From Planctomycetota bacterium (GTDB lineage: Bacteria; Planctomycetota; Phycisphaerae; UBA1845; UTPLA1), in contig QEVG01000007.1 in assembly GCA_003576905.1 (NCBI GenBank), positions 1 through 64,000 on the forward strand: a DNA stretch of 64,000 nucleotides. Direction: 5' to 3'. Below the pieces are notes generated by a model. It saw only the letters and a program-made list of their open reading frames with translations. It ran no database searches and was not told the origin of the DNA. Below, in pieces: positions 614 through 17,135 of this stretch. Numbering within the stretch: the stretch's first letter is position 1; every line of letters starts with the position of its first letter. The translations under genes were made by a program, and so were the position numbers.

Positions 614-2368
614 TCAGACAAACACGACCGTTTCCTTCACGACCTCTTCGATGGTCGTGACGCCGTCGTAGATGGCCAGTAGCCCGCTCTCGCGGAGGGT
701 GCGCATGCCGTTGCGCAGCGCGGCCTCGTGGAGGATGCCCGTGGACGCCCCGTTCATGACGAGTTCCCGGATTTCGTCGTTGAGCACCATGATCTCGAAG
801 ATGCCCACGCGGCCGCGATAGCCCGTGCCGTTGCAGTAGTCGCAGCCCTTGCCGTAGTAGAACTTCTTGCCCTGGACGTCTTCCGGGCGGAGCTGAAGTT
901 CCATGAGCTGCTCCTCGGTGGGCTGGTACTCGGTGCGGCAGTTCTTGCAGACCCGCCGGCAGAGGCGCTGGGCGATCACCGCCTCGAACGTCGCCGTGAT
1001 CAGAAACGGCTCGACGCCGAGGTCGAGAAGTCGCGCCACGGCGCTCGGGGCGTCGTTGGTGTGCAGCGTGCTGAACACAAGGTGGCCCGTCAGCGCCGCC
1101 TGGATGGCGATCTGCGCCGTCTCCAGGTCGCGGACTTCGCCGACGAGGATCACGTCCGGGTCCTGGCGCAGAAAGCTGCGCAGGGCGCGGGCAAAGGTCA
1201 GCCCGGCGTCCGGGTTGACCTGCACCTGGATCAGGCCGTCGATGTCGTACTCGACCGGGTCCTCGGCGGTGAGAATCTTGATGCCGGGATCGTTCAGGGC
1301 GTTGAGCGCCGCGTACAGCGTCGTGGTCTTGCCGGAGCCGGTGGGCCCGGTGTTGACGACGATGCCGTGCGGACGGTCGATGAGCAGCCTTGTGAGCTTG
1401 AGGTCGTCCTCGCGGAGGCCGATCTTGTCGAGGTCGAGGTTGACGTTGGCGCGGTCGAGAATACGCAGCACCACCGACTCGCCGAAGAGCGTGGGCAGAA
1501 CGGCGACGCGCAGATCCACGGTGCTTCCGCCGATGTTGAGCGAGATGCGGCCGTCCTGCGGGAGCCGGCGCTCGGCGATGTCGAGGTTCGCCATGACCTT
1601 GATGCGGCTGGCGATGGCCATGGCGAGGAAGCGCGGCGGCGGCACCATCTCGTACAGCACGCCGTCAATGCGGTAGCGCAGCTTGTATTCGTTCTCGAAC
1701 GGCTCGAAGTGAATGTCGCTGGACTTGTCGCGGATCGCCTTGAGCAGGACGAGATTCAGCAGTTGCTTGACCGGGTTGGAGTCCACCAGCTCCTTGATGT
1801 CCTCCATGTCGAGCGACTCGCCGCGGCCCTCGAACTTGGCCAGGTCGGCGTCCTTGCCGATCTCGCCGATCAGGTCGTTGATCGACTCCTGGGCGCCTTC
1901 CGGGTAGTACCGCGTCAGGGCCGCCGCGATCTGGTCCTCGGTCGCGATCAGCGGCCGGATCGAAAAGCCGAGCAGCTTTCGCAGGTCGTCCGTCGCCTGG
2001 AAGTTGTCGGGCGACGCGATGGCGATGCTGAGCGTGCGCGCGGCCGGGTCGAAATCCACCGGGATGATCCGGTAGGTGTTGGCCATCTGGTTGGGCACGA
2101 GCTTGATCGTGTCCGGGTTGACGTCGATCGTGTCGAGGTTGACCGGCTCCATGCCGACCTGGGCGGCCAGAGCGAACTGGAGATCGGCCTCCTTGATATA
2201 GCCGAGATCGACGAGAATCCGCCCGACCGGACCGCGCGTGGTCTTCTGGATCGCCAGGGCCTCGTGAACCTGCGCGCGATTGACCTTTCCCATCTTGATG
2301 AGAATGCGGCCAAGGGGGCGGCCCTTGTACTGCTTCGTCGTCGAACCGGACTGGTCGTTCGGGGACAT
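614..2368 (-). CDS. PilB/GspE-family secretion ATPase with MshEN-type N domain (motor A)
   Basis: Cytoplasmic hexameric ATPase that would power pilus extension or type II secretion. The 584 residues start with two tandem RxLGxxL-like motifs (about 17-41 and 46-70), the signature of the c-di-GMP-binding MshEN domain. Then come the GspE N2 region, Walker A GPTGSGKT (341-348), Walker B DPDVILVGEVRD (about 403-414), TLHTNDA and a CxxxCxxC...CxxC zinc site (Cys 470-512). ATG at 2368 is preferred over the GTG at 2377 because GGAG lies 8 bases upstream of it. It is last in a run of five paralogous motors, and no pilin, platform or PilM-Q gene is nearby. Confidence 0.93.
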   Translation of the reverse strand: MSPNDQSGSTTKQYKGRPLGRILIKMGKVNRAQVHEALAIQKTTRGPVGRILVDLGYIKEADLQFALAAQVGMEPVNLDTIDVNPDTIKLVPNQMANTYRIIPVDFDPAARTLSIAIASPDNFQATDDLRKLLGFSIRPLIATEDQIAAALTRYYPEGAQESINDLIGEIGKDADLAKFEGRGESLDMEDIKELVDSNPVKQLLNLVLLKAIRDKSSDIHFEPFENEYKLRYRIDGVLYEMVPPPRFLAMAIASRIKVMANLDIAERRLPQDGRISLNIGGSTVDLRVAVLPTLFGESVVLRILDRANVNLDLDKIGLREDDLKLTRLLIDRPHGIVVNTGPTGSGKTTTLYAALNALNDPGIKILTAEDPVEYDIDGLIQVQVNPDAGLTFARALRSFLRQDPDVILVGEVRDLETAQIAIQAALTGHLVFSTLHTNDAPSAVARLLDLGVEPFLITATFEAVIAQRLCRRVCKNCRTEYQPTEEQLMELQLRPEDVQGKKFYYGKGCDYCNGTGYRGRVGIFEIMVLNDEIRELVMNGASTGILHEAALRNGMRTLRESGLLAIYDGVTTIEEVVKETVVFV

Positions 2369-2447
2369 CGCAAACACTCCGAACCGTCAATAACCTGTGT
2401 TTCCTTCAAACCGTGGTGTGCGCCGGGCCGCGGCGGCCCCGACCGGA

Positions 2448-3596
2448 TCAGCCCTTCTTTTCCTTGCCCGCCTCGCCCTCCTCCGGCGCTTCGCGGATGG
2501 TTGTGAGGGCGTCTCCGGCCTCGTGTAGCTTGCCGGCCTTTTCGAGCTTCTCCTGAAGGTCGCCCGGCTGCCGGGAGCGATCGAGCATGTCCTCGGCGCT
2601 GATGAGGTTTCTCTCGTAGAGCGACCAGAGATGCTCGTCGAGAAGCTGCATGCCGTACTTCTTTCCGGTCTGGATGGCCGAGTCAATGCGGAAGGTCTTG
2701 TTCTCGCGGATGAGGTTGGCAATGGCCGGCGTGCAGACCATGAACTCATAGGCGGCGCACATGCCAGAGGGCTTGCGCGGCATCAGGGCCTGCGAAAGGA
2801 CGGCGATCAGCGAGGTCGAAAGCTGAACGCGAATCTGGTCCTGCTGTTCGTGGGGGAAGGCGTCGATGATTCGGTTGACCGTTCCCTGGCAGCCGGTCGT
2901 GTGCAGCGTGCTGAAGACAAGGTGGCCGGTTTCGGCGGCGAGAATGGCGTTGGAGATCGTCTCGAGGTCGCGCATTTCACCGACAAGGATCACGTCGGGG
3001 TCGGATCGCAGCACGCGTCGGAGGGCCTCGGCAAAACTCGGTACGTCATTGCCGACCTCGCGCTGATTGATGAGGCTCTTCTTGTGCTGGTGGTAATACT
3101 CGATCGGGTCCTCGACGGTCACGATGTGCCGATCCAGCTCCACGTTGATGTAGTTGATCATCGAGGCCAGCGTCGTCGTCTTGCCCGATCCGGTGGGACC
3201 GGTGACGAGAAAGAGCCCGCGCGGCCGGCGGCAGAGGGAGCGGATGATCGGGGGAAGGCCGATTTCGTCGAAGGTGAGAAACTTGCTGGGGATCAATCGC
3301 AGGACCAGCGTGACGTTGCCCTTCTGCCGGAACACGGATACGCGGAATCGCGCCTGTTCGCCGAAGGCAAAGCCGAAGTCGGTTCCGCCCTCTTCCTGAA
3401 GCTCCTGCTGATTGCGATCGGGCGTGATGGACTTCATCAGGGCGACGGTGTCCTCCGGCTCCAGCACCTTGGTCTCCAGCTGGCGCAGACGCCCGTGAAG
3501 GCGAAGGACCGGAGGCCGGCCGACGGATAGATGGATGTCGCTCGCACCCTTCTTGATGCAGGTTTCAAGAATTCGATCAATGTGAATGGTTGCCAT
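2448..3596 (-). CDS. pilT: PilT-type pilus retraction ATPase
   Basis: Cytoplasmic ATPase for twitching retraction. At 382 residues it is slightly longer than typical PilT (about 345) because of a charged tail rich in Glu and Lys. Walker A GPTGSGKT is at 133-140 and Walker B DPDVILVGEMRD at about 199-210. The PilT-specific AIxNLIRE box is AIANLIRE at 291-298. It lacks the GspE N domain and zinc cysteines, as expected. It lies between two PilB-type genes, with 79 bases to the downstream motor. Confidence 0.92.
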   Translation of the reverse strand: MATIHIDRILETCIKKGASDIHLSVGRPPVLRLHGRLRQLETKVLEPEDTVALMKSITPDRNQQELQEEGGTDFGFAFGEQARFRVSVFRQKGNVTLVLRLIPSKFLTFDEIGLPPIIRSLCRRPRGLFLVTGPTGSGKTTTLASMINYINVELDRHIVTVEDPIEYYHQHKKSLINQREVGNDVPSFAEALRRVLRSDPDVILVGEMRDLETISNAILAAETGHLVFSTLHTTGCQGTVNRIIDAFPHEQQDQIRVQLSTSLIAVLSQALMPRKPSGMCAAYEFMVCTPAIANLIRENKTFRIDSAIQTGKKYGMQLLDEHLWSLYERNLISAEDMLDRSRQPGDLQEKLEKAGKLHEAGDALTTIREAPEEGEAGKEKKG

Positions 3597-3692: not shown

Positions 3693-5408
<1,716 letters not shown>

Positions 5409-5875: not shown

Positions 5876-7603
5876 TCAGCTCATGGAGGCGACGCGCTCC
5901 ACTTCGCTGACCGTCGTGATTCCTTCGATGACTTTTTTGTAGCCGGTATCCAGCAGGGTGTGGAACATCCACTCGCCGGCGGCCTTGCGGATTTCAGAGA
6001 TCGTGGGGCCTGAGAGGACGACGTCCCGCACGGCAGGGGTGAAGAGAAGCATCTCGTAGATCGCGATGCGGCCGCGGAATCCCGTACCCATGCACTTCTT
6101 GCAGCCGACGGCTTCAAAGAAGCTTCCAAAGGAGCGGCCCTCGAGGTTCATTTTCCGAACCGTCTTGGCGTCGGGCTTGTAGGGGCGCTTGCAATGGGCG
6201 CACAGAACACGAACCAGGCGCTGGGAAATGCACAGTGTCACCGCATTGGCAACCAGGAACGACTCAATGCCCAGGTCGAGAAGGCGAAAGACAGTGCCGA
6301 TCGTATCTCGTGCGTGAATCGTGGTCAGAACAAGGTGCCCCGTCGTCGCCGCCTGCATGGCGAGGCGGGCGGTCTCCTGATCGCGAATCTCGCCCACCAG
6401 GATGACGTCCGGGTCCTGGCGCAGAACGGACGAAAGCACCGTCGCAAAGGTCACGCCATGAACGGGATCAATCGAGATTTGCGTCGTATTCGAGAGCTCG
6501 TACTCGACAGGATCTTCGATGGTGACTATGTTCCGCGTGGTGGCGTTAATCGACTGAAGCGCGGTGTACATCGTCGTGGTCTTTCCGCTGCCGGTCGGGC
6601 CGGAGAGAATGATCATGCCCGCGTCCTGATCGCAGATGCGCTGAAGCTCCGCGACGGCGTCGAGTTCCATTCCGAGGTTTTCGAAATGCGTCGGCACCGC
6701 CCCGGGATCCAGGAGCCGGAGGGCGAGCTTCTGGCCGTGCATGGTGGGCGTAAAGTTGACTCGGAAATCCACGCGGCGCGTCGGAAGCTCGACCGCGAAG
6801 CTTCCTTCCTGGACGATGCTCCGCTTGGCAATGTCGATTTCGCAGAGAATCTTGATGACGTTCAGAATCGCGAGGGCCATTTTGGTCGTGACTTCGCCGA
6901 CCGACTGCATCTGCCCGTCGATGCGGAACCGGAGGGCATACACCTCGGCCTTGGGCTCGACGTGAATGTCGGTCGCCCGTGTTCGAAAGGCGACGAAGAG
7001 CAACTGGCGCAGCGCCTCGAACGCCTCGCCGGCCTTGGAATGTGCGGCGGGCTTCTGGGGTTCGGACTTCCGGTTCAGAAGTGTCACGTCCTTGACAACC
7101 TGCGGGGCGCCGGGCGGTACCGGCACCGTCACGCACGCCTGCATCAAGGTGCTCAGTTGCCGTGCGAGGGGGCCGCCGACGAGCGCACGAACGGCGAGCG
7201 TCGTCGCGACGAGCGTGGGATCGGAAGAGGTCACGGGCGGCTCATCCGGCACTTCATCGTCATCATCAAGAACAATTTCAGCGGAAGGGATTTCGCCCGT
7301 TTCGGCCACATTGACCTCGTCGGGAATCAGGCGAATCACCGTGGAGCCGATGCGGAAACTGTCGCCGAGTTCCATGGCGGCCTCGACAATGCGGTTTTCA
7401 CCCATCCACGTGCCGTTGTGGCTGCCGAGATCTTTGACGTAAAAGTGGCCCTTGCGGTGCTCGATGATGCAGTGCTTGCGCGACGCGACAGGGTCCTTGA
7501 GAACGACGTCGTTGCCCTCCTGACGACCGATCCCCAGGGTGGGACCGTTGAATTCTACGATCTGCGTTGGCTGACCTTTCGCACTGATCTCCAGTCGTGG
7601 CAT
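5876..7603 (-). CDS. FHA domain fused to PilB/GspE-type ATPase (motor C)
   Basis: 575 residues with an unusual architecture. Residues 1-95 form a forkhead-associated domain with all its marks (GR at 26-27, SRKH at 41-44, HNGT at 62-65), which binds phosphothreonine. After an acidic linker (about 100-130) comes the secretion-ATPase core: Walker A GPTGSGKT (335-342), DPDVILVGEIRD, and a zinc site CAHC...CKKC. The MshEN region of the other motors is absent, so the FHA domain appears to replace it. This suggests assembly controlled by Ser/Thr kinases, which are common in planctomycetes; that link is inferred. Confidence 0.92.
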   Translation of the reverse strand: MPRLEISAKGQPTQIVEFNGPTLGIGRQEGNDVVLKDPVASRKHCIIEHRKGHFYVKDLGSHNGTWMGENRIVEAAMELGDSFRIGSTVIRLIPDEVNVAETGEIPSAEIVLDDDDEVPDEPPVTSSDPTLVATTLAVRALVGGPLARQLSTLMQACVTVPVPPGAPQVVKDVTLLNRKSEPQKPAAHSKAGEAFEALRQLLFVAFRTRATDIHVEPKAEVYALRFRIDGQMQSVGEVTTKMALAILNVIKILCEIDIAKRSIVQEGSFAVELPTRRVDFRVNFTPTMHGQKLALRLLDPGAVPTHFENLGMELDAVAELQRICDQDAGMIILSGPTGSGKTTTMYTALQSINATTRNIVTIEDPVEYELSNTTQISIDPVHGVTFATVLSSVLRQDPDVILVGEIRDQETARLAMQAATTGHLVLTTIHARDTIGTVFRLLDLGIESFLVANAVTLCISQRLVRVLCAHCKRPYKPDAKTVRKMNLEGRSFGSFFEAVGCKKCMGTGFRGRIAIYEMLLFTPAVRDVVLSGPTISEIRKAAGEWMFHTLLDTGYKKVIEGITTVSEVERVASMS

Positions 7604-7722: not shown

Positions 7723-8952
7723 TCACCCGATCAGCCCGCGGCTGCCGGAGCGGATGCCCTTCATGCGCATCTTGAGCTCGTCCGGGTTCGGCGCGACTTC
7801 AAGGGCGACCTTGATATCGAGGTACTCGGTCTGAACGAGTTTGTACAGCGCCTCGGTGAAGTCCTGCATTCCTTCCTGCGTCGCGGACTTCAGCACGGTG
7901 GTAATCTCGAAATCGCGGCCTTCGGCGATGAGCTTCCGGATCGACGGGTTGGTGATCATGATCTCGCAGCACGGAACGCGCGAACGCGAGGGATGAATGC
8001 TCGGCAGAAGCTTCTGTGCGATTACTGCCTTGAGGTTGAACATCAGCGCCTGACGGACCTGGGCACGGGCATCCTCGGGAAACAGGTCGAGGATGCGCGT
8101 CATGGTCTGCGACGCGCTGGACGCGTGGATCGTTCCCAGTACCAGGTGGCCCGTTTCGGCGGCATGGACGGCCGCCTCGAAGGTGTCCCGGTCGCGCATC
8201 TCGCCGACGAGCACGACGTCGGGATCCTCGCGCATGAGGTATTTGAGCGCCTCGTGGAAGTTCTTCACGTCGATGCCGATCTCGCGCTGATTGATGAACG
8301 CCTTGTCGTCCTGAAAGATGTACTCGATCGGGTCCTCCAGCGTGACGATGTGGCAGGCGCGCGTCTTGTTGATGTAGTTGAGCATCGCCGCGATCGTCGT
8401 CGACTTTCCGGAGCCGGTGATACCGGCGAGAAGAATCAGACCCTGGTGAAACTTGGCTATTTCCTTCAGGACCGGAGGGATATTCAGCTCTTCAAAGTCC
8501 GCGATCTTGGATGTCACCCGCCGGGCGGCCACCGACGTCGCCCCGCGCTGGCGGAAGACGTTGAGCCGGAAGCGGTCCATGCCCGGGACCTGGTGGGCAA
8601 AGTCGAGGGCCCCGTGTTCGAAAAAGTACTTCTTCTGGGTCTCGGTGATGACTTCGAAGACCATGTCTTCGATTTCCTTGGAGGAAAGCGGCGGCTCCTG
8701 GGCCTTGCGAATGTCTCCGGCAATGCGAAACCGGGGGGGCGAGCCGGCCTTCAGGTGAACGTCGCTGGCGCCCATCTTGATGCAGGCGCGGAAGAGGCGG
8801 TTGATCACGGGACCCTTTGACCGGTCGTCGCTCTTGCCGGCCCCGTTTCCACCGGCGGCTTCGGCGGCAGCCTCGGCCACTTCATCGTGGCCGATGCTGT
8901 GGCAGTCGATGGGATTCAAGTCCTCGTCATGATTGTGGATGCGCGATTCCAT
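7723..8952 (-). CDS. PilT/PilU-like ATPase (motor D)
   Basis: 409-residue retraction-type ATPase. An extra N-terminal 45 residues rich in Ala, Asp and Glu precede the PilT fold, which starts with GASDVHLKAGSPP. Walker A is a variant GITGSGKS (177-184) rather than GPTGSGKT. Walker B is DPDVVLVGEMRD, followed by HLVLGTIHA, and the SIRKLIAEG segment matches the PilT AIRxLIRE box. No zinc cysteines. The variant P-loop and extra N-terminus favour a PilU-like accessory motor over canonical PilT. First gene of the five-motor array. Confidence 0.9.
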   Translation of the reverse strand: MESRIHNHDEDLNPIDCHSIGHDEVAEAAAEAAGGNGAGKSDDRSKGPVINRLFRACIKMGASDVHLKAGSPPRFRIAGDIRKAQEPPLSSKEIEDMVFEVITETQKKYFFEHGALDFAHQVPGMDRFRLNVFRQRGATSVAARRVTSKIADFEELNIPPVLKEIAKFHQGLILLAGITGSGKSTTIAAMLNYINKTRACHIVTLEDPIEYIFQDDKAFINQREIGIDVKNFHEALKYLMREDPDVVLVGEMRDRDTFEAAVHAAETGHLVLGTIHASSASQTMTRILDLFPEDARAQVRQALMFNLKAVIAQKLLPSIHPSRSRVPCCEIMITNPSIRKLIAEGRDFEITTVLKSATQEGMQDFTEALYKLVQTEYLDIKVALEVAPNPDELKMRMKGIRSGSRGLIG

Positions 8953-11762: not shown

Positions 11763-13955
11763 TTATCGGCGTGCATCACCTCGTCGCCGCCGGCCCAGCG
11801 TCCACATGCCGGCGACGCCCATGACCATTGCCGGCGTTACGCCCGGTCCGCAGACGCCGCAAGGCGCGGATTGCAGCCCCAGCGACTGCCCGGCGTCAGG
11901 GGGTTTCGGATCGACGGCATTGGCGATGCCGTCGCCGTCGTCGTCGGCCTGGTCTGGATTGAACACCTCGGGGGCGTTATCCGCGGCATCTCCGATGCCG
12001 TCTGCGTCGCGGTCGAATTGCGCAAAGGCGAGGTAGGATGAAAGAAACCGGCGGTTCTCGTCTGATATCAGCAGACCGTCGCGATCAATCACGGAAACGC
12101 CGCGACTGGCCGTCACGGCGAGTCGCCCGTTCGCCAATTCGAACACCGCCCGGAAGAAGCTGAGATCGGCCGGTGTGTAGTGGCCGACCAGGTCGCCGCC
12201 GGGCACAAGCTCCATAATGCCGCGATGCGATCCGGCGGTGGATGCGATCAGAATGTTCCCGTTCGACGCGCCGGCCATGCCAATGAAATGATTCTGAATC
12301 TGCCCAAGTGGACCCAGGTGGGCTCCCGTTCTCAGATCAAATCGGTGAACGGCGTTCAATCCCGAATCGCTCACGAGGATCTCGTCGCCGCGCACCAGAA
12401 TGTTTGCGATCGCCGAGATGGCGGGAGCCACACTCGGAATGCGTCGGCCGACGAACCCACCCTCTGCATCGAGCTCGACGATTTCGGGCGTGCCGCCGGG
12501 GCCCGGGTTGCTCGGCACAAGGACGTGCCCATCGGGCAGGACGGCGAGGCAGCTGGCATTGATGAAGTTCGCGCCGCCTGCATTAATCCCCAGTGCAAAC
12601 TCGCCGGACTCCAGCGTATCCAGCGAGATCTGAAGAATGCGGTTCCCGCCGATCAGACTGAGTACGCGACGCCGCGCTCCGTCGAATGTCAGGAAGGCTC
12701 CGTGTCCGCCGACGAGGCGGCCTTCGATGAAGAGCGGATCGAGGAACCGGCCATCCCGCGCGTCGTAGGCCGCCACAGTTCCGGAAAGATCGCCCGTCGC
12801 GAGGAGAATGCCCGATCGTTCGAGAAGCGCCCGCGCCGGATTCTCAGAGTCGCAATCGATGCGCCCGTCTCCGTCAATGTCCACGTCGGGTTTGTCACAG
12901 CCGCACTCGCCCGGCTCCGACTTGAGCGGGCTGTCCGGGCACAGGTCGCAGAGGTCGCCCGTCCGATCACCGTCCCGGTCGGTCTGATCCGCGCCGGCCC
13001 GGAAGGGGCAGTTGTCGCGGATGTCCTCGATGCCATCGGCGTCGGTGTCGCTGAAGACTCTGTCGTTGACCAGCGCTACGAATCGGTAGGTCGTCTCATG
13101 ATCATCCACGATGCCGCGGACCAGGATGAAGAGCGGGCCATCCGTCTCGGCCACAACCGTGCCGGCTGCGTGGGCGCTGTTGGTGTCGGGATTGGCAACT
13201 GACAACGCGTCACCGGATGCCAGGGGCGTGCCATCGGCGCTAAAGATGGTAACGATGATGGGGGTCACGAGGCCGTTGCGCTCCGGATCGGCGTCGAGAA
13301 GTACGACGAGACGCTCCCCGGCGCGCACGTCCACGCGATAGAAGTCGAACTCCGCGCGATGCGTCGTGCCCGTCGTCAGCCGGGAGGTGATAAAGTCGGC
13401 CTGATCGATCGTATCGTTCGGCTCGGTTTCGGAGACCGCATCGGCTGGGCTGACGACCGCATGGTGCAGCTCGTAGGCGTCGAGAACGTGCGGAATCGAC
13501 GGGTCCATCACACGGTAGAAGACGTCTCCCGGTGCGTCCGTCTCCGCGCCCGCGACGACCGAACCGAGCTTCGGCCCGTCATTGTCGTCGCTTTCGAGAA
13601 CGCGCCCGTCACTGTTAAGGACCTGAAGGAGCGAGTCCGGCTTGTTGCCGTCGGCGTCGGGCGGCGAAACGCGCGAATCCACCCAGGCGAAGATAAGGTC
13701 ACCGGCCTGGCAGTGCGGCACGCGATACGTATCGAGTTCACCCGCCGGGCTGATCTCGGCGCGGACCGATTCGCGGTTTCGGAGAAGGGATGCGGCTTGA
13801 ATGGAATCATTCGGCTCGAGTTCGCCGACCTCTGAACCCAGGACCGACGCCGCCAGGAAGGCCTGCAAGGCGGCGGCAAGGATCACGGCATCCTGAATGA
13901 AGCGGGCGAGTTGAAAGCGCGGAGTCTCCGGCTGCTTTTTCCGGCTCGGTGCCAT
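11763..13955 (-). CDS. Secreted calcium-repeat/beta-propeller protein with C-terminal anchor
   Basis: 730 residues. A basic N-terminus and hydrophobic stretch (about 20-40) form a signal sequence. Two PPC-like domains follow, each opening with E-x-EPND (about 45-170 and 175-300). A thrombospondin type 3 calcium-binding run (DTDADGIEDIRDNC...) comes next, then a beta-propeller-like region (about 385-650) and more TSP3 repeats. The last 35 residues are Cys/Gly-rich (CGVCGPG), then a hydrophobic segment, then RRRR, like a PEP/MYXO-CTERM sorting tail. GGAG is 9 bases before the ATG. Probably surface-anchored; substrate unknown. Confidence 0.85.
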   Translation of the reverse strand: MAPSRKKQPETPRFQLARFIQDAVILAAALQAFLAASVLGSEVGELEPNDSIQAASLLRNRESVRAEISPAGELDTYRVPHCQAGDLIFAWVDSRVSPPDADGNKPDSLLQVLNSDGRVLESDDNDGPKLGSVVAGAETDAPGDVFYRVMDPSIPHVLDAYELHHAVVSPADAVSETEPNDTIDQADFITSRLTTGTTHRAEFDFYRVDVRAGERLVVLLDADPERNGLVTPIIVTIFSADGTPLASGDALSVANPDTNSAHAAGTVVAETDGPLFILVRGIVDDHETTYRFVALVNDRVFSDTDADGIEDIRDNCPFRAGADQTDRDGDRTGDLCDLCPDSPLKSEPGECGCDKPDVDIDGDGRIDCDSENPARALLERSGILLATGDLSGTVAAYDARDGRFLDPLFIEGRLVGGHGAFLTFDGARRRVLSLIGGNRILQISLDTLESGEFALGINAGGANFINASCLAVLPDGHVLVPSNPGPGGTPEIVELDAEGGFVGRRIPSVAPAISAIANILVRGDEILVSDSGLNAVHRFDLRTGAHLGPLGQIQNHFIGMAGASNGNILIASTAGSHRGIMELVPGGDLVGHYTPADLSFFRAVFELANGRLAVTASRGVSVIDRDGLLISDENRRFLSSYLAFAQFDRDADGIGDAADNAPEVFNPDQADDDGDGIANAVDPKPPDAGQSLGLQSAPCGVCGPGVTPAMVMGVAGMWTLGRRRRGDARR

Positions 13956-14316: not shown

Positions 14317-14745
14317 TCACGGGCAGACGCCACTGCTGAGCAGATCCTCGACAAAGACGGGCACGTCATCGAGGGTCACTCCGCTCTCCAGGCTGACATC
14401 CGCACACTGGCAGCTTCCGCCCGACGTAAAGCAGGCGACGAACTTTTGCACATCCCGCGCGTCCTTGATGCCGTCGCCGTTCATGTCTCCGGGACAGTAG
14501 CAGATCTGACTGACGACCCAGAAACCGCCGGCCAGCTCGTATGGTCCACCGACCATGGGTGCCGTCGGACCGGCATCATGCTGCCCGATCGTACCGGACA
14601 GCTCATAGGCGCCACCGGCGAGATGCATCGCGCCCCCGCCGTCAATCGTATGCCAGTCGATGGTGTAGTCCGGTCCGGCCGAGGCGATGGGCAGGACCAG
14701 CCAGAGTGTTGCGGTGAGTGTCATCGCGATTCGCATGAGGTTCAT
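14317..14745 (-). CDS. Secreted small protein with dockerin-like tail
   Basis: 142 residues. A signal peptide ([23 protein letters not shown]) is followed by a planctomycete-style segment containing two [13 protein letters not shown]-like units. A dockerin-like calcium motif [14 protein letters not shown] comes next, with a second half ending at the C-terminus. The ATG overlaps the TGA of the upstream adhesin (ATGA, 14742-14745) and has AAAGGAG upstream, so the two are translationally coupled. It is likely exported with the adhesin. The dockerin-like tail suggests docking to a surface scaffold; no cohesin was seen in the window. Confidence 0.8.
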
Positions 14746-17009
14746 CGACCCGCTCCTTTCGTATCGATAGCCACCTGCTCAATCAATACTTCCATCCGCT
14801 CGAGTCGCTGCGTGAGCTCGGCGATCTGCCCGTCTCGGCGGGCGATCTGCTGGTCCTTCTCGTCGCGCAGCTCGCGGAGCGCTTCAACAAGCACCGGCGT
14901 CAGCCTTCCGTAATCGACGGAGAGGTAGCCATCCTCGCCGCGACTGACGACATGCGGCAGGACTTTCTCCACCTCCTGCGCGATGAAGCCGAGCTGGCGG
15001 TCCTTGGCGAACTTGTGATCGGGGAACGCCTCGCGCTTCCAGTCGAAGTTCACACCGCGAAGCTGCTCGACCTTTTCGAGTGCGCCCGCGATGGGCTCGA
15101 CATGCTCCTTGAACCGGGCATCGCTGCATGTGCCGATCGTGCCGGTGGCGCAAATGTTTCCGACGACGTGAAGGCGCTGGGAGGGCGATTGCGTGCCGAT
15201 CCCGACGTTTCCGTTGTTTGTGATGCTCATTCGGGATAATCGTGCCGTGTATAGATCGATGCCCAGTCGATTTGGAGATCCGCCCGGACGATTCGAGCCG
15301 ATTCCTTCGCCGGAAGTCAGACCGCCCATGCGCAGGCCGAAGAACGGCTGCACGTCCGAGGGCGGACCATTCGCCGCGCCGGCCCCGTCAACAAGGATGC
15401 CTTCCTGTACGTGAAGCTGCTCGGTCGGTGTGCCCGTCCCGATGCCGACTTTGCCGGATGAAGTGATCCGCATGTGCTCCGTATAGCCCGATCCGCGGGA
15501 GGTCTCGGAGCCGAATCGAAGCGCGCCGGTCGCCGGCCAAATCATCGAAGGGTTCGGGGCGGCGTGAAGGTAGAGATAATGACTCTGATCGAATGAGACA
15601 CCGAGCGACGGCGTACTGTAGTAGTTCGGCGGGCCAGCGACTTCGAGAGACATACCGGGGGCAATCGTTCCGATGCCGACATTCCCCGCAGGATCGATCA
15701 TCATACGAACCGCCGGCGCCGTGTTGTCTCGAATCACGAAACTGCCCACGGGCTCCAGGTTCGTTGTGCCGGTTGTGAGCAATCCCCAATCCCGGCCACT
15801 CGCCACTGTGTTCACCAAGCGCATCCAGGTGCCCTCTGTCGAGTTGCTTTCGAAGCGGGCGTGGTTGTAGTTGGGTCCGCCGACCGTGTGCAGCCGCGCT
15901 TGTGGATTGTTGGTGCCAATGCCGACACCACCGCCGGCGCGGATGAGGAACTGGTTGGCGGCGGTCGAGGCGAAATCGAGGCTCGTGGCATCGCCCCAGA
16001 CAAATGAACCGTCGTGGATGGCCTTGGCACGATGACCGGCCGCGAAGCTGGAGTAGCCGGTGGCCTCATTGAGTGCGCCACCTGGTACCGTGGAGAAGCC
16101 ATTACTGGCCGAGTTCTGATACCCTCCACCGACAGTGGAAGCGTAGCCGTCGGCCAGGTTGCCGAGTCCTCCACCGACGGTTGAACCGAAGTCGCTGGCC
16201 GAATTGCCTTGACCACCTCCGACGGTGGCACCGTTACCGCTCCCCGTGTTGCCGGCACCCCCGCTGACGGTGGAACTATGACCTTCGGCCGAATTCTGCT
16301 GCCCTCCGGCGACCGTGGCATTGGGACCACTCGCCGCGTTGAGTATTCCACCGCCGACGGTGGACCACACGCTTGTTGCGGCGTTGGAGAATCCCCCGGA
16401 GACTGTTGCATGATCGCTCCATGCGGCTTCATCATCAGCCCCAGCCTGGTTATCCGAGCCGCCGCCGACCGTGCCGTAATGACTCGTCACGCGGTTGTTC
16501 AGCCCATCCAATGGACTCCCCCCGCCGCCGATGGTCGCGCCGACCAATCCGGGTGTCACCGCATTGCCGCTGTATCCACCGATGACATTCGGGCTGGTCG
16601 CGTTCTCCTGAGTGTAGAGCCCCGGCAGGGCCAGGGCGTACGGCGACGGCATGAGAGGCTGCCGGGGAACGAGCGGCGTGCCGTTCACAACGATCTCCAA
16701 CCATCGGGCGCTGCCATTGAAGGCGGCCTCACCGAAGTTGAGGCGGACAGTGAACAGGCCATCCGTTACATTGATCGGCGGCGGATTGCCACCAAGGCCG
16801 TCGTAGGTCAGGGTCGGGCCGATTTGCGCTCCGGCGAGCGCGTCATCCCACAGGGAGAAAGCGAAGTTGTGCGGCCCGCTCGCAGGGCTCCCGCCGTCAT
16901 TCAGGTGCCCCTGGTAGGTGAAGGCCGTGCCCAGTGGCGATTCCGCCATGAGCCTCGCTTCTCCTGTGGAAACAGCGATTACGATGAATGTGAGATCTCG
17001 CATCTTCAT
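14742..17009 (-). CDS. Large adhesin/tail-fibre-like protein with S74 self-cleaving chaperone
   Basis: 755 residues from ATG 17009, chosen over the frame opening at 17057 because AAAGGAG (17017-17023) is correctly spaced. An N-terminal export signal and a beta domain precede nine 15-residue repeats of the form STVGGGxxNxA (about 179-320), resembling YadA head repeats. Several VGIGTxxP units follow, as in phage-tail-like fibres. The C-terminus has the intramolecular chaperone/peptidase S74 signature SDARFK (catalytic Ser 629, Lys 634), then [10 protein letters not shown] and a coiled coil. It probably trimerises and releases the chaperone. Cell-surface adhesion is inferred. Confidence 0.88.
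16050..16475 (-). repeat. In-gene 45-bp repeats encoding 15-residue YadA-like units
   Basis: About nine tandem units encode STVGGGxxNxAxxxx. The phase is kept exactly, while the DNA differs at many third positions, so the array is old and under protein-level selection. Recombination between units could change fibre length. Confidence 0.8.
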
Positions 17010-17135
17010 GGCGTTACTCCTTTCTGGAAGAGAGCGCAGGGCCGTGCGGAATGGCACGAAGCTCTACGGTGGACTGAACTTAGAGACTCGCCCGAAACAG
17101 CGGTCTAAAGACAGTTCGCGAAGGGTGGCCTGCGC

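Follow-up and report, generated by a model that had tools for sequence, protein, structure and literature searches.

An FHA domain in the N-terminal sensor position of a PilB-like motor ATPase from Planctomycetota

A PilB-like ATPase encoded in the window, by which we mean the whole 64,000-nt stretch of planctomycete DNA that was analyzed, carries an FHA domain fused to its motor (Table 1). The best explanation of its sequence features is that this protein, FHA-PilB, represents a distinct clade within the PilB/GspE superfamily and works as an active motor, and its FHA domain very likely binds phosphothreonine. We assign a probability of roughly one half to the reading that FHA-PilB is a kinase-controlled auxiliary motor acting with a membrane module, with the partner, the substrate, and the kinase all being putative. 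The linked membrane module, which contains a motor predicted to be dead, is more surprising than the FHA fusion itself.

Table 1. Positions of FHA-PilB, its parts, and the adjacent motor genes in the window
Feature	Position	Strand	Size or evidence
FHA-PilB-like ATPase	5876..7603	minus	575 aa
FHA domain, residues 1-95	7319..7603	minus	PF00498 at residues 25-86, E 1.6e-16, 60.9 bits (cut-off 20.7); R27, S41, H44, N63, G64
Variable linker, residues 96-195	7019..7318	minus	alignment of homologues; weak AlphaFold model
N2 and ATPase domains, residues 196-575	5876..7018	minus	PF00437 (T2SSE) at residues 197-570, E 6.9e-113; GPTGSGKTT (Walker A), IEDPVEY, GEIRD, H423, H430, four Cys
PilT2 (PilT-like ATPase)	7723..8952	minus	directly upstream of FHA-PilB; TIGR01420 427.1 bits (cut-off 319.1)
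PilB paralogue with MshEN	3693..5408	minus	MshEN E 1.6e-17; T2SSE E 7e-134
PilT paralogue	2448..3596	minus	TIGR01420 455.0 bits
Second PilB paralogue with MshEN	614..2377	minus	MshEN E 1e-17; T2SSE E 1e-137

Architecture and motor family of FHA-PilB

A first-pass annotation of this DNA had placed an FHA domain fused to a PilB-type motor at positions 5876-7603, in place of the usual N-terminal domain. These coordinates proved exact, and the gene lies on the minus strand, which that annotation did not give. As assessed by Pfam, both FHA (PF00498) and T2SSE (PF00437) are matched in FHA-PilB and in 77/77 of its homologues. The replacement is supported as well: the neighboring PilB paralogues have MshEN in the N-terminal position, and MshEN is matched by Pfam in none of the 77 homologues. 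Among PDB sequences, the first 96 residues match the FHA domains of GarA and OdhI (E ~1e-8 to 1e-7), and residues 195-573 match PilB, GspE, and PilF (E down to 1e-91). The window genome has 17 T2SSE and 10 FHA matches, which occur together only at this locus. Because the protein is present in all 17 genomes of the window's family (the copy in G007 being cut by a contig end) and both domains are found in all 77 homologues, the fusion is not an effect of assembly or chance. At the sequence level, FHA-PilB is under purifying selection, with whole-protein dN/dS values of 0.07-0.105 in two close pairs. Across the homologues, the linker varies in length between 59 and 163 aa, as counted between aligned residues 95 and 195. 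An AlphaFold model based on an 8-row alignment (mean pLDDT 57.8, pTM 0.43) is too weak for the motor, and its pLDDT falls to 25-36 at linker residues 101-130.

Relatives of FHA-PilB were detected in 25/101 genomes drawn from the order (E 1e-108), in 69/248 drawn from the class (profile, 1e-150), and in 35/392 drawn from the phylum, 12 of the latter being outside the class. Among these 12, with the exception of G438 and G518, which were left out of the inspection of N termini, and of L164, whose N terminus was not seen, FHA was seen in one (L161 in G377), GYF_2 in another (L165), and hydrophobic N termini in L166-L169.

The motor has the features of the PilB/GspE (T2SSE) superfamily, i.e. Walker A and B, Asp and His boxes, and a four-Cys site, which are kept in 76-77 of the 77 homologues at the positions counted. 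K341, E405, and H430 are each present in 76/77, with a single exception in genome G015, and the four Cys in 77/77. Assignment to a curated family is another matter. FHA-PilB scores 398.8 bits with TIGR02538 (PilB, type IVa pilus assembly; cut-off 675.65), which the two MshEN-bearing paralogues also miss at 648.8 and 628.7 bits, and 416.9 bits with TIGR02533 (GspE, type II secretion; cut-off 630.25). The label PilB-type is therefore appropriate at the level of the PilB/GspE superfamily but not at that of either curated family.

In a careful tree of 58 motor domains, in which 35 of the FHA motors and no CpaF reference were entered, the 35 FHA rows group with L164 and the GYF_2 motor in one clade (100/99). 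The 11 dead membrane PilBs entered (see below) all fall in a separate clade (100/100). In a quick tree with PilT as outgroup, PilB and Escherichia coli GspE fall outside the groups of FHA motors and of dead and active membrane PilBs (SH-aLRT 98), and one FHA row (L092) falls outside the FHA clade. A clade made up of the FHA motors and nothing else was rejected (AU p 0.0144), the GYF_2 motor being nested among them, and it is therefore probable that GYF_2 took over the place of FHA in L165. That motor, from the same phylum and another family, belongs to the same clade as FHA-PilB but has GYF_2 at its N terminus instead. It is a PilB-like protein (L165:1498-3486) with a charged, arginine-rich linker.

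The exception in G015 belongs to the same genus as the window genome. Four neighboring genes are 82-89% identical between the two, whereas FHA-PilB is only 38% identical. In the G015 protein (L072:8732-10456), K341 is replaced by T, E405 by R, and H430 by E, and the FHA domain is still matched (E 6e-16) in an open frame. The gene sits on a long branch within the family (1.25 in the quick tree, 1.26 in the careful one). Displacement by a foreign copy is not supported, the quick tree placing the gene inside the family on its long branch, and we prefer rapid change in place as the likely history. Since the motor residues were lost while FHA stayed intact, ATPase activity can apparently be dispensable. 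The G015 gene may either be decaying, or its lineage may retain an FHA-bearing scaffold alone. This single genus thus offers a matched pair, an intact FHA-PilB in the window genome and, in G015, one that retains FHA but has lost motor residues.

Probable phosphothreonine reading, and kinases

The FHA domain retains the conserved Arg, Ser, and Asn that characterize phosphothreonine readers. R27, S41, and N63, which we take from the FHA literature to be the positions that contact phosphothreonine, are kept in 77, 76, and 76 of the 77 homologues, respectively, with L119 as the sole homologue departing at S41 and N63. Besides R27, residues G26, R42, H44, D58, G64, and G86 are invariant (77/77), and T65 is kept in 74/77. 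The mean frequency of the commonest letter is 0.54 at residues 25-94 versus 0.38 in the linker. Separate dN/dS values are 0.145 (G012/G011) and 0.148 (window/G016) for the FHA part versus 0.038 and 0.063 for the motor part of the same pairs. This pattern of conservation is consistent with the trace expected from a phosphothreonine reader.

The first-pass annotation had connected motor control with Ser/Thr kinases and suggested a search for co-occurring ones. The genome as a whole has 42 Pkinase matches, 39 of them over the cut-off, but none of the 42 is on the window's own contig (C54). Likewise, a crude motif scan, which recovered two of four known kinases, revealed no kinase in 61 class and 21 family regions. 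A tie between FHA-PilB and Ser/Thr kinases is plausible. Elsewhere in the window genome (C2:6089-7388 of G000), Pkinase and FHA matches lie near each other on the same strand and may be part of a single protein.

Gene neighborhood and a probably inactive membrane PilB

The window locus contains five motor genes on one strand, with PilB, PilT, and PilB following downstream of FHA-PilB; the window opens with the first base of contig C54. Read along the strand of FHA-PilB, the gene before it is PilT2 in 15/17 family genomes, including L066, where one gene on the opposite strand intervenes; in L138 and L139, no PilT2 was seen at this position. Downstream of FHA-PilB, 6/17 family genomes (L067, L070, L071, L135, L136, and L138) have a membrane PilB that appears to be catalytically dead, then a CvpA-like gene, then an HtrA-like trypsin/PDZ gene. 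In the other 11, the dead membrane PilB does not adjoin FHA-PilB. The window genome is one of these, with its membrane PilB at C57:129678-131342 and the CvpA-like and HtrA-like genes behind it. The Colicin_V score of the CvpA-like gene is 30.2 bits in L067 (cut-off 29.3) and 18.8 bits, below the cut-off, in the window genome. Overall, the dead membrane PilB was detected in 16/17 family genomes, the one in which it was not found being G010 (75% complete), and the CvpA-like and HtrA-like genes accompany it in 10/10 family loci inspected. Outside the family, the neighbors of FHA-PilB are mostly unrelated. Strict coupling of the dead membrane PilB to FHA-PilB was rejected, since the latter is missing in families f8, f4, and others that possess the former. 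Genes in these regions were called by a codon-usage caller, which overlooked the membrane PilB of L246 and L248 and did not call the full FHA-PilB in L092.

Two other genes of the window were noted. One (14742-17057) encodes a 771-aa protein with a C-terminal Peptidase_S74 domain (endosialidase chaperone), a feature of phage tail-spike type in a chromosomal setting. The other (11763-13955) encodes a 730-aa protein, in which the sole Pfam match is a weak thrombospondin type 3 repeat below the cut-off.

As assessed by Kyte-Doolittle analysis, the membrane PilB has hydrophobic stretches at its N terminus. None of 52 membrane PilBs of the class retains the Walker A lysine, which has been replaced in 16/16 of the family, in 18/18 additional members of the order (L216-L233), and in 18/18 at other class loci; the duplicate loci L246, L249, and L253 were left out of this set. 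The four Cys are kept in 52/52 and E363 in 51/52, and E405 is kept in 12/52 and H430 in 2/52. It follows from these motifs that the membrane PilB of the class is predicted to be catalytically inactive. In 23/23 membrane PilBs from other classes the lysine is kept, and each of the eleven motor positions checked has the canonical residue. Because dN/dS is 0.021-0.162 (four pairs), which indicates purifying selection, the dead membrane PilB is not a decaying gene. Relatives of it were found in 202/248 class genomes (E 1e-95) and 47/392 phylum genomes (1e-100), the motor motifs having been read in the 52 class and 23 other-class proteins only. In the family proteins (L187-L202), the two cysteine pairs are also separated by a conserved insert of the type RPFYRPPNPDEIEVDKQGNP, which was not observed in FHA-PilB or PilB.

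PilT2 lies directly upstream of the dead PilB, with no FHA-PilB between, in 14/17 class regions of other families. Outside the class, it is directly upstream of the membrane PilB in 9/23 loci, as judged from a short stretch of upstream DNA; in three of the other 14, which were inspected with ~10 kb upstream, no PilT2 was found. Since the two genes adjoin each other elsewhere, PilT2 and the membrane PilB are probably the older pair, between which FHA-PilB was inserted in the window's family.

Proposed role and comparison with known systems

We propose the following mechanism. FHA would have taken over the N-terminal position in which such motors usually carry the c-di-GMP sensor MshEN, and it would bind a peptide phosphorylated on threonine by one of the numerous Hanks-type kinases. 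Binding might recruit a soluble FHA-PilB hexamer to a membrane partner, or free it from that partner. In the window's family, the partner may be a module in which the dead membrane PilB is joined by PilT2, and FHA-PilB would then be a regulated source of ATPase power that either substitutes for PilT2 or opposes it. This is the kinase-controlled auxiliary motor to which we gave even odds at the outset. Counting against it are the failure to find a linked kinase, the 11 family genomes in which the dead PilB lies apart from FHA-PilB, the mostly unrelated neighbors outside the family, the dead PilBs of families without FHA-PilB, and the loss of K341, E405, and H430 in G015. A more specific version, in which FHA-PilB would be the phospho-switched engine of a previously undescribed, platform-less membrane machine of Planctomycetota distinct from both pili and type II systems, is doubtful. 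Such a machine would comprise PilT2, the membrane PilB as a dead scaffold, and the CvpA-like and HtrA-like envelope proteins, with PilT2 powering it where FHA-PilB is absent.

It is possible, and we hold this tentatively, that FHA-PilB is instead an ordinary auxiliary motor for type IV pili or type II secretion, which would dock on a PilC/GspF from another locus, with FHA as no more than a second input; its linkage with PilT2 and the dead PilB would then reflect mere clustering of motor genes. The window locus, with an ordinary PilB and PilT among its five motor genes, agrees with this, as do the motor motifs of FHA-PilB, which are those of extension ATPases, and the 10 T2SSF matches of the genome, which are spread over five contigs besides that of the window (C41, C50, C14, C2, and C21). 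However, no PilC/GspF gene was found in any of 98 regions around FHA-PilB or the membrane PilB, using five queries from the window's own genome and matches of at least 100 residues, and the same queries recover E. coli gspF (E 2e-48). FHA-PilB is, in this respect, not encoded with a PilC platform protein as a PilB would be, although distant PilC-type genes exist. Its clade, which stands apart from PilB and GspE with an SH-aLRT of 98, and the lack of MshEN in all 77 homologues also argue against an ordinary motor.

It is unlikely that the FHA fold is a structural assembly adaptor like the YscD-like cytoplasmic domain rather than a phosphate reader. Yop-YscD_cpl (PF16697) is indeed also matched by 77/77 homologues, but R27, S41, and N63 are retained as described above, and GarA and OdhI are among the best PDB sequence matches. 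To our knowledge, YscD-like domains lack these Arg/Ser/Asn contact residues. Least probable is cis autoinhibition, in which FHA would fold onto a phosphothreonine of its own chain and shut the motor as in OdhI and GarA: both are close sequence matches and a long flexible linker joins FHA to the motor, but conservation within FHA-PilB is lowest in the linker, and no threonine there is invariant among eight close relatives.

Pilus-type motors are known to respond to c-di-GMP through MshEN. An FHA in that sensor place would connect them with the extensive kinase repertoires of Planctomycetota, in which kinase expansion has been described (PMC11032199). A clade with FHA, and once GYF_2, in the place of MshEN would make the N-terminal slot a swappable signal socket. 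The dead membrane PilB, an otherwise strongly conserved protein whose catalytic residues are lost class-wide, is a natural case for the role of a dead pilus ATPase. In the openly licensed literature, we found no report of a dead membrane PilB, of PilT with CvpA, or of a pseudoATPase with type IV pili. In Rhodopirellula baltica, pilT (RB12773) and pilB (RB12774) are named together as salt-induced (PMC2754498); they may correspond to the pair of PilT2 and membrane PilB. In archaea, FHA proteins regulate expression of the archaellum (PMC4858521).

FHA domains on related motors have been described before. In the Kil system of Myxococcus xanthus, which is Tad-like, KilF is a CpaF with an N-terminal FHA fusion (PMC8460266), and FHA-bearing CpaF proteins, mostly from betaproteobacteria, have been termed class III, with an FHA domain, a disordered stretch, and an ATPase core (PMC12019362). 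The statement in the first-pass annotation that no well-described motor with such an arrangement was known is thus too strong. The caveat attached to it, that novelty would be lower if the fusion were common and known, applies in part; for the PilB/GspE branch, Planctomycetota included, we found no report of an FHA fusion in openly licensed literature. KilF and FHA-PilB share an N-terminal FHA on an ATPase of the type IV pilus superfamily but differ in the motor. KilF is of CpaF/TadA type, whereas FHA-PilB scores 50.1 bits with TIGR03819 (TadA family), below the cut-off of 373.15, and has PilB and GspE as best PDB matches. KilF also acts in a Tad-like system, whereas no Tad locus was recognized on general inspection of the genes around FHA-PilB. 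Class III CpaF proteins have the same order of FHA, disordered stretch, and ATPase core, but again the motor family differs. With PilB/GspE proteins of MshEN type, FHA-PilB shares motor fold, motifs, and a signal-sensing N terminus. It differs from them in that MshEN, a c-di-GMP receptor domain (PMC5013675), is replaced by FHA with phosphothreonine as the presumed ligand, in its separate clade, and in the lack of a nearby PilC. Judged against these published accounts, the FHA-motor fusion was already known in the CpaF/Tad branch, the clade in the PilB branch appears to be new, and its surroundings seem more unusual than the fusion.
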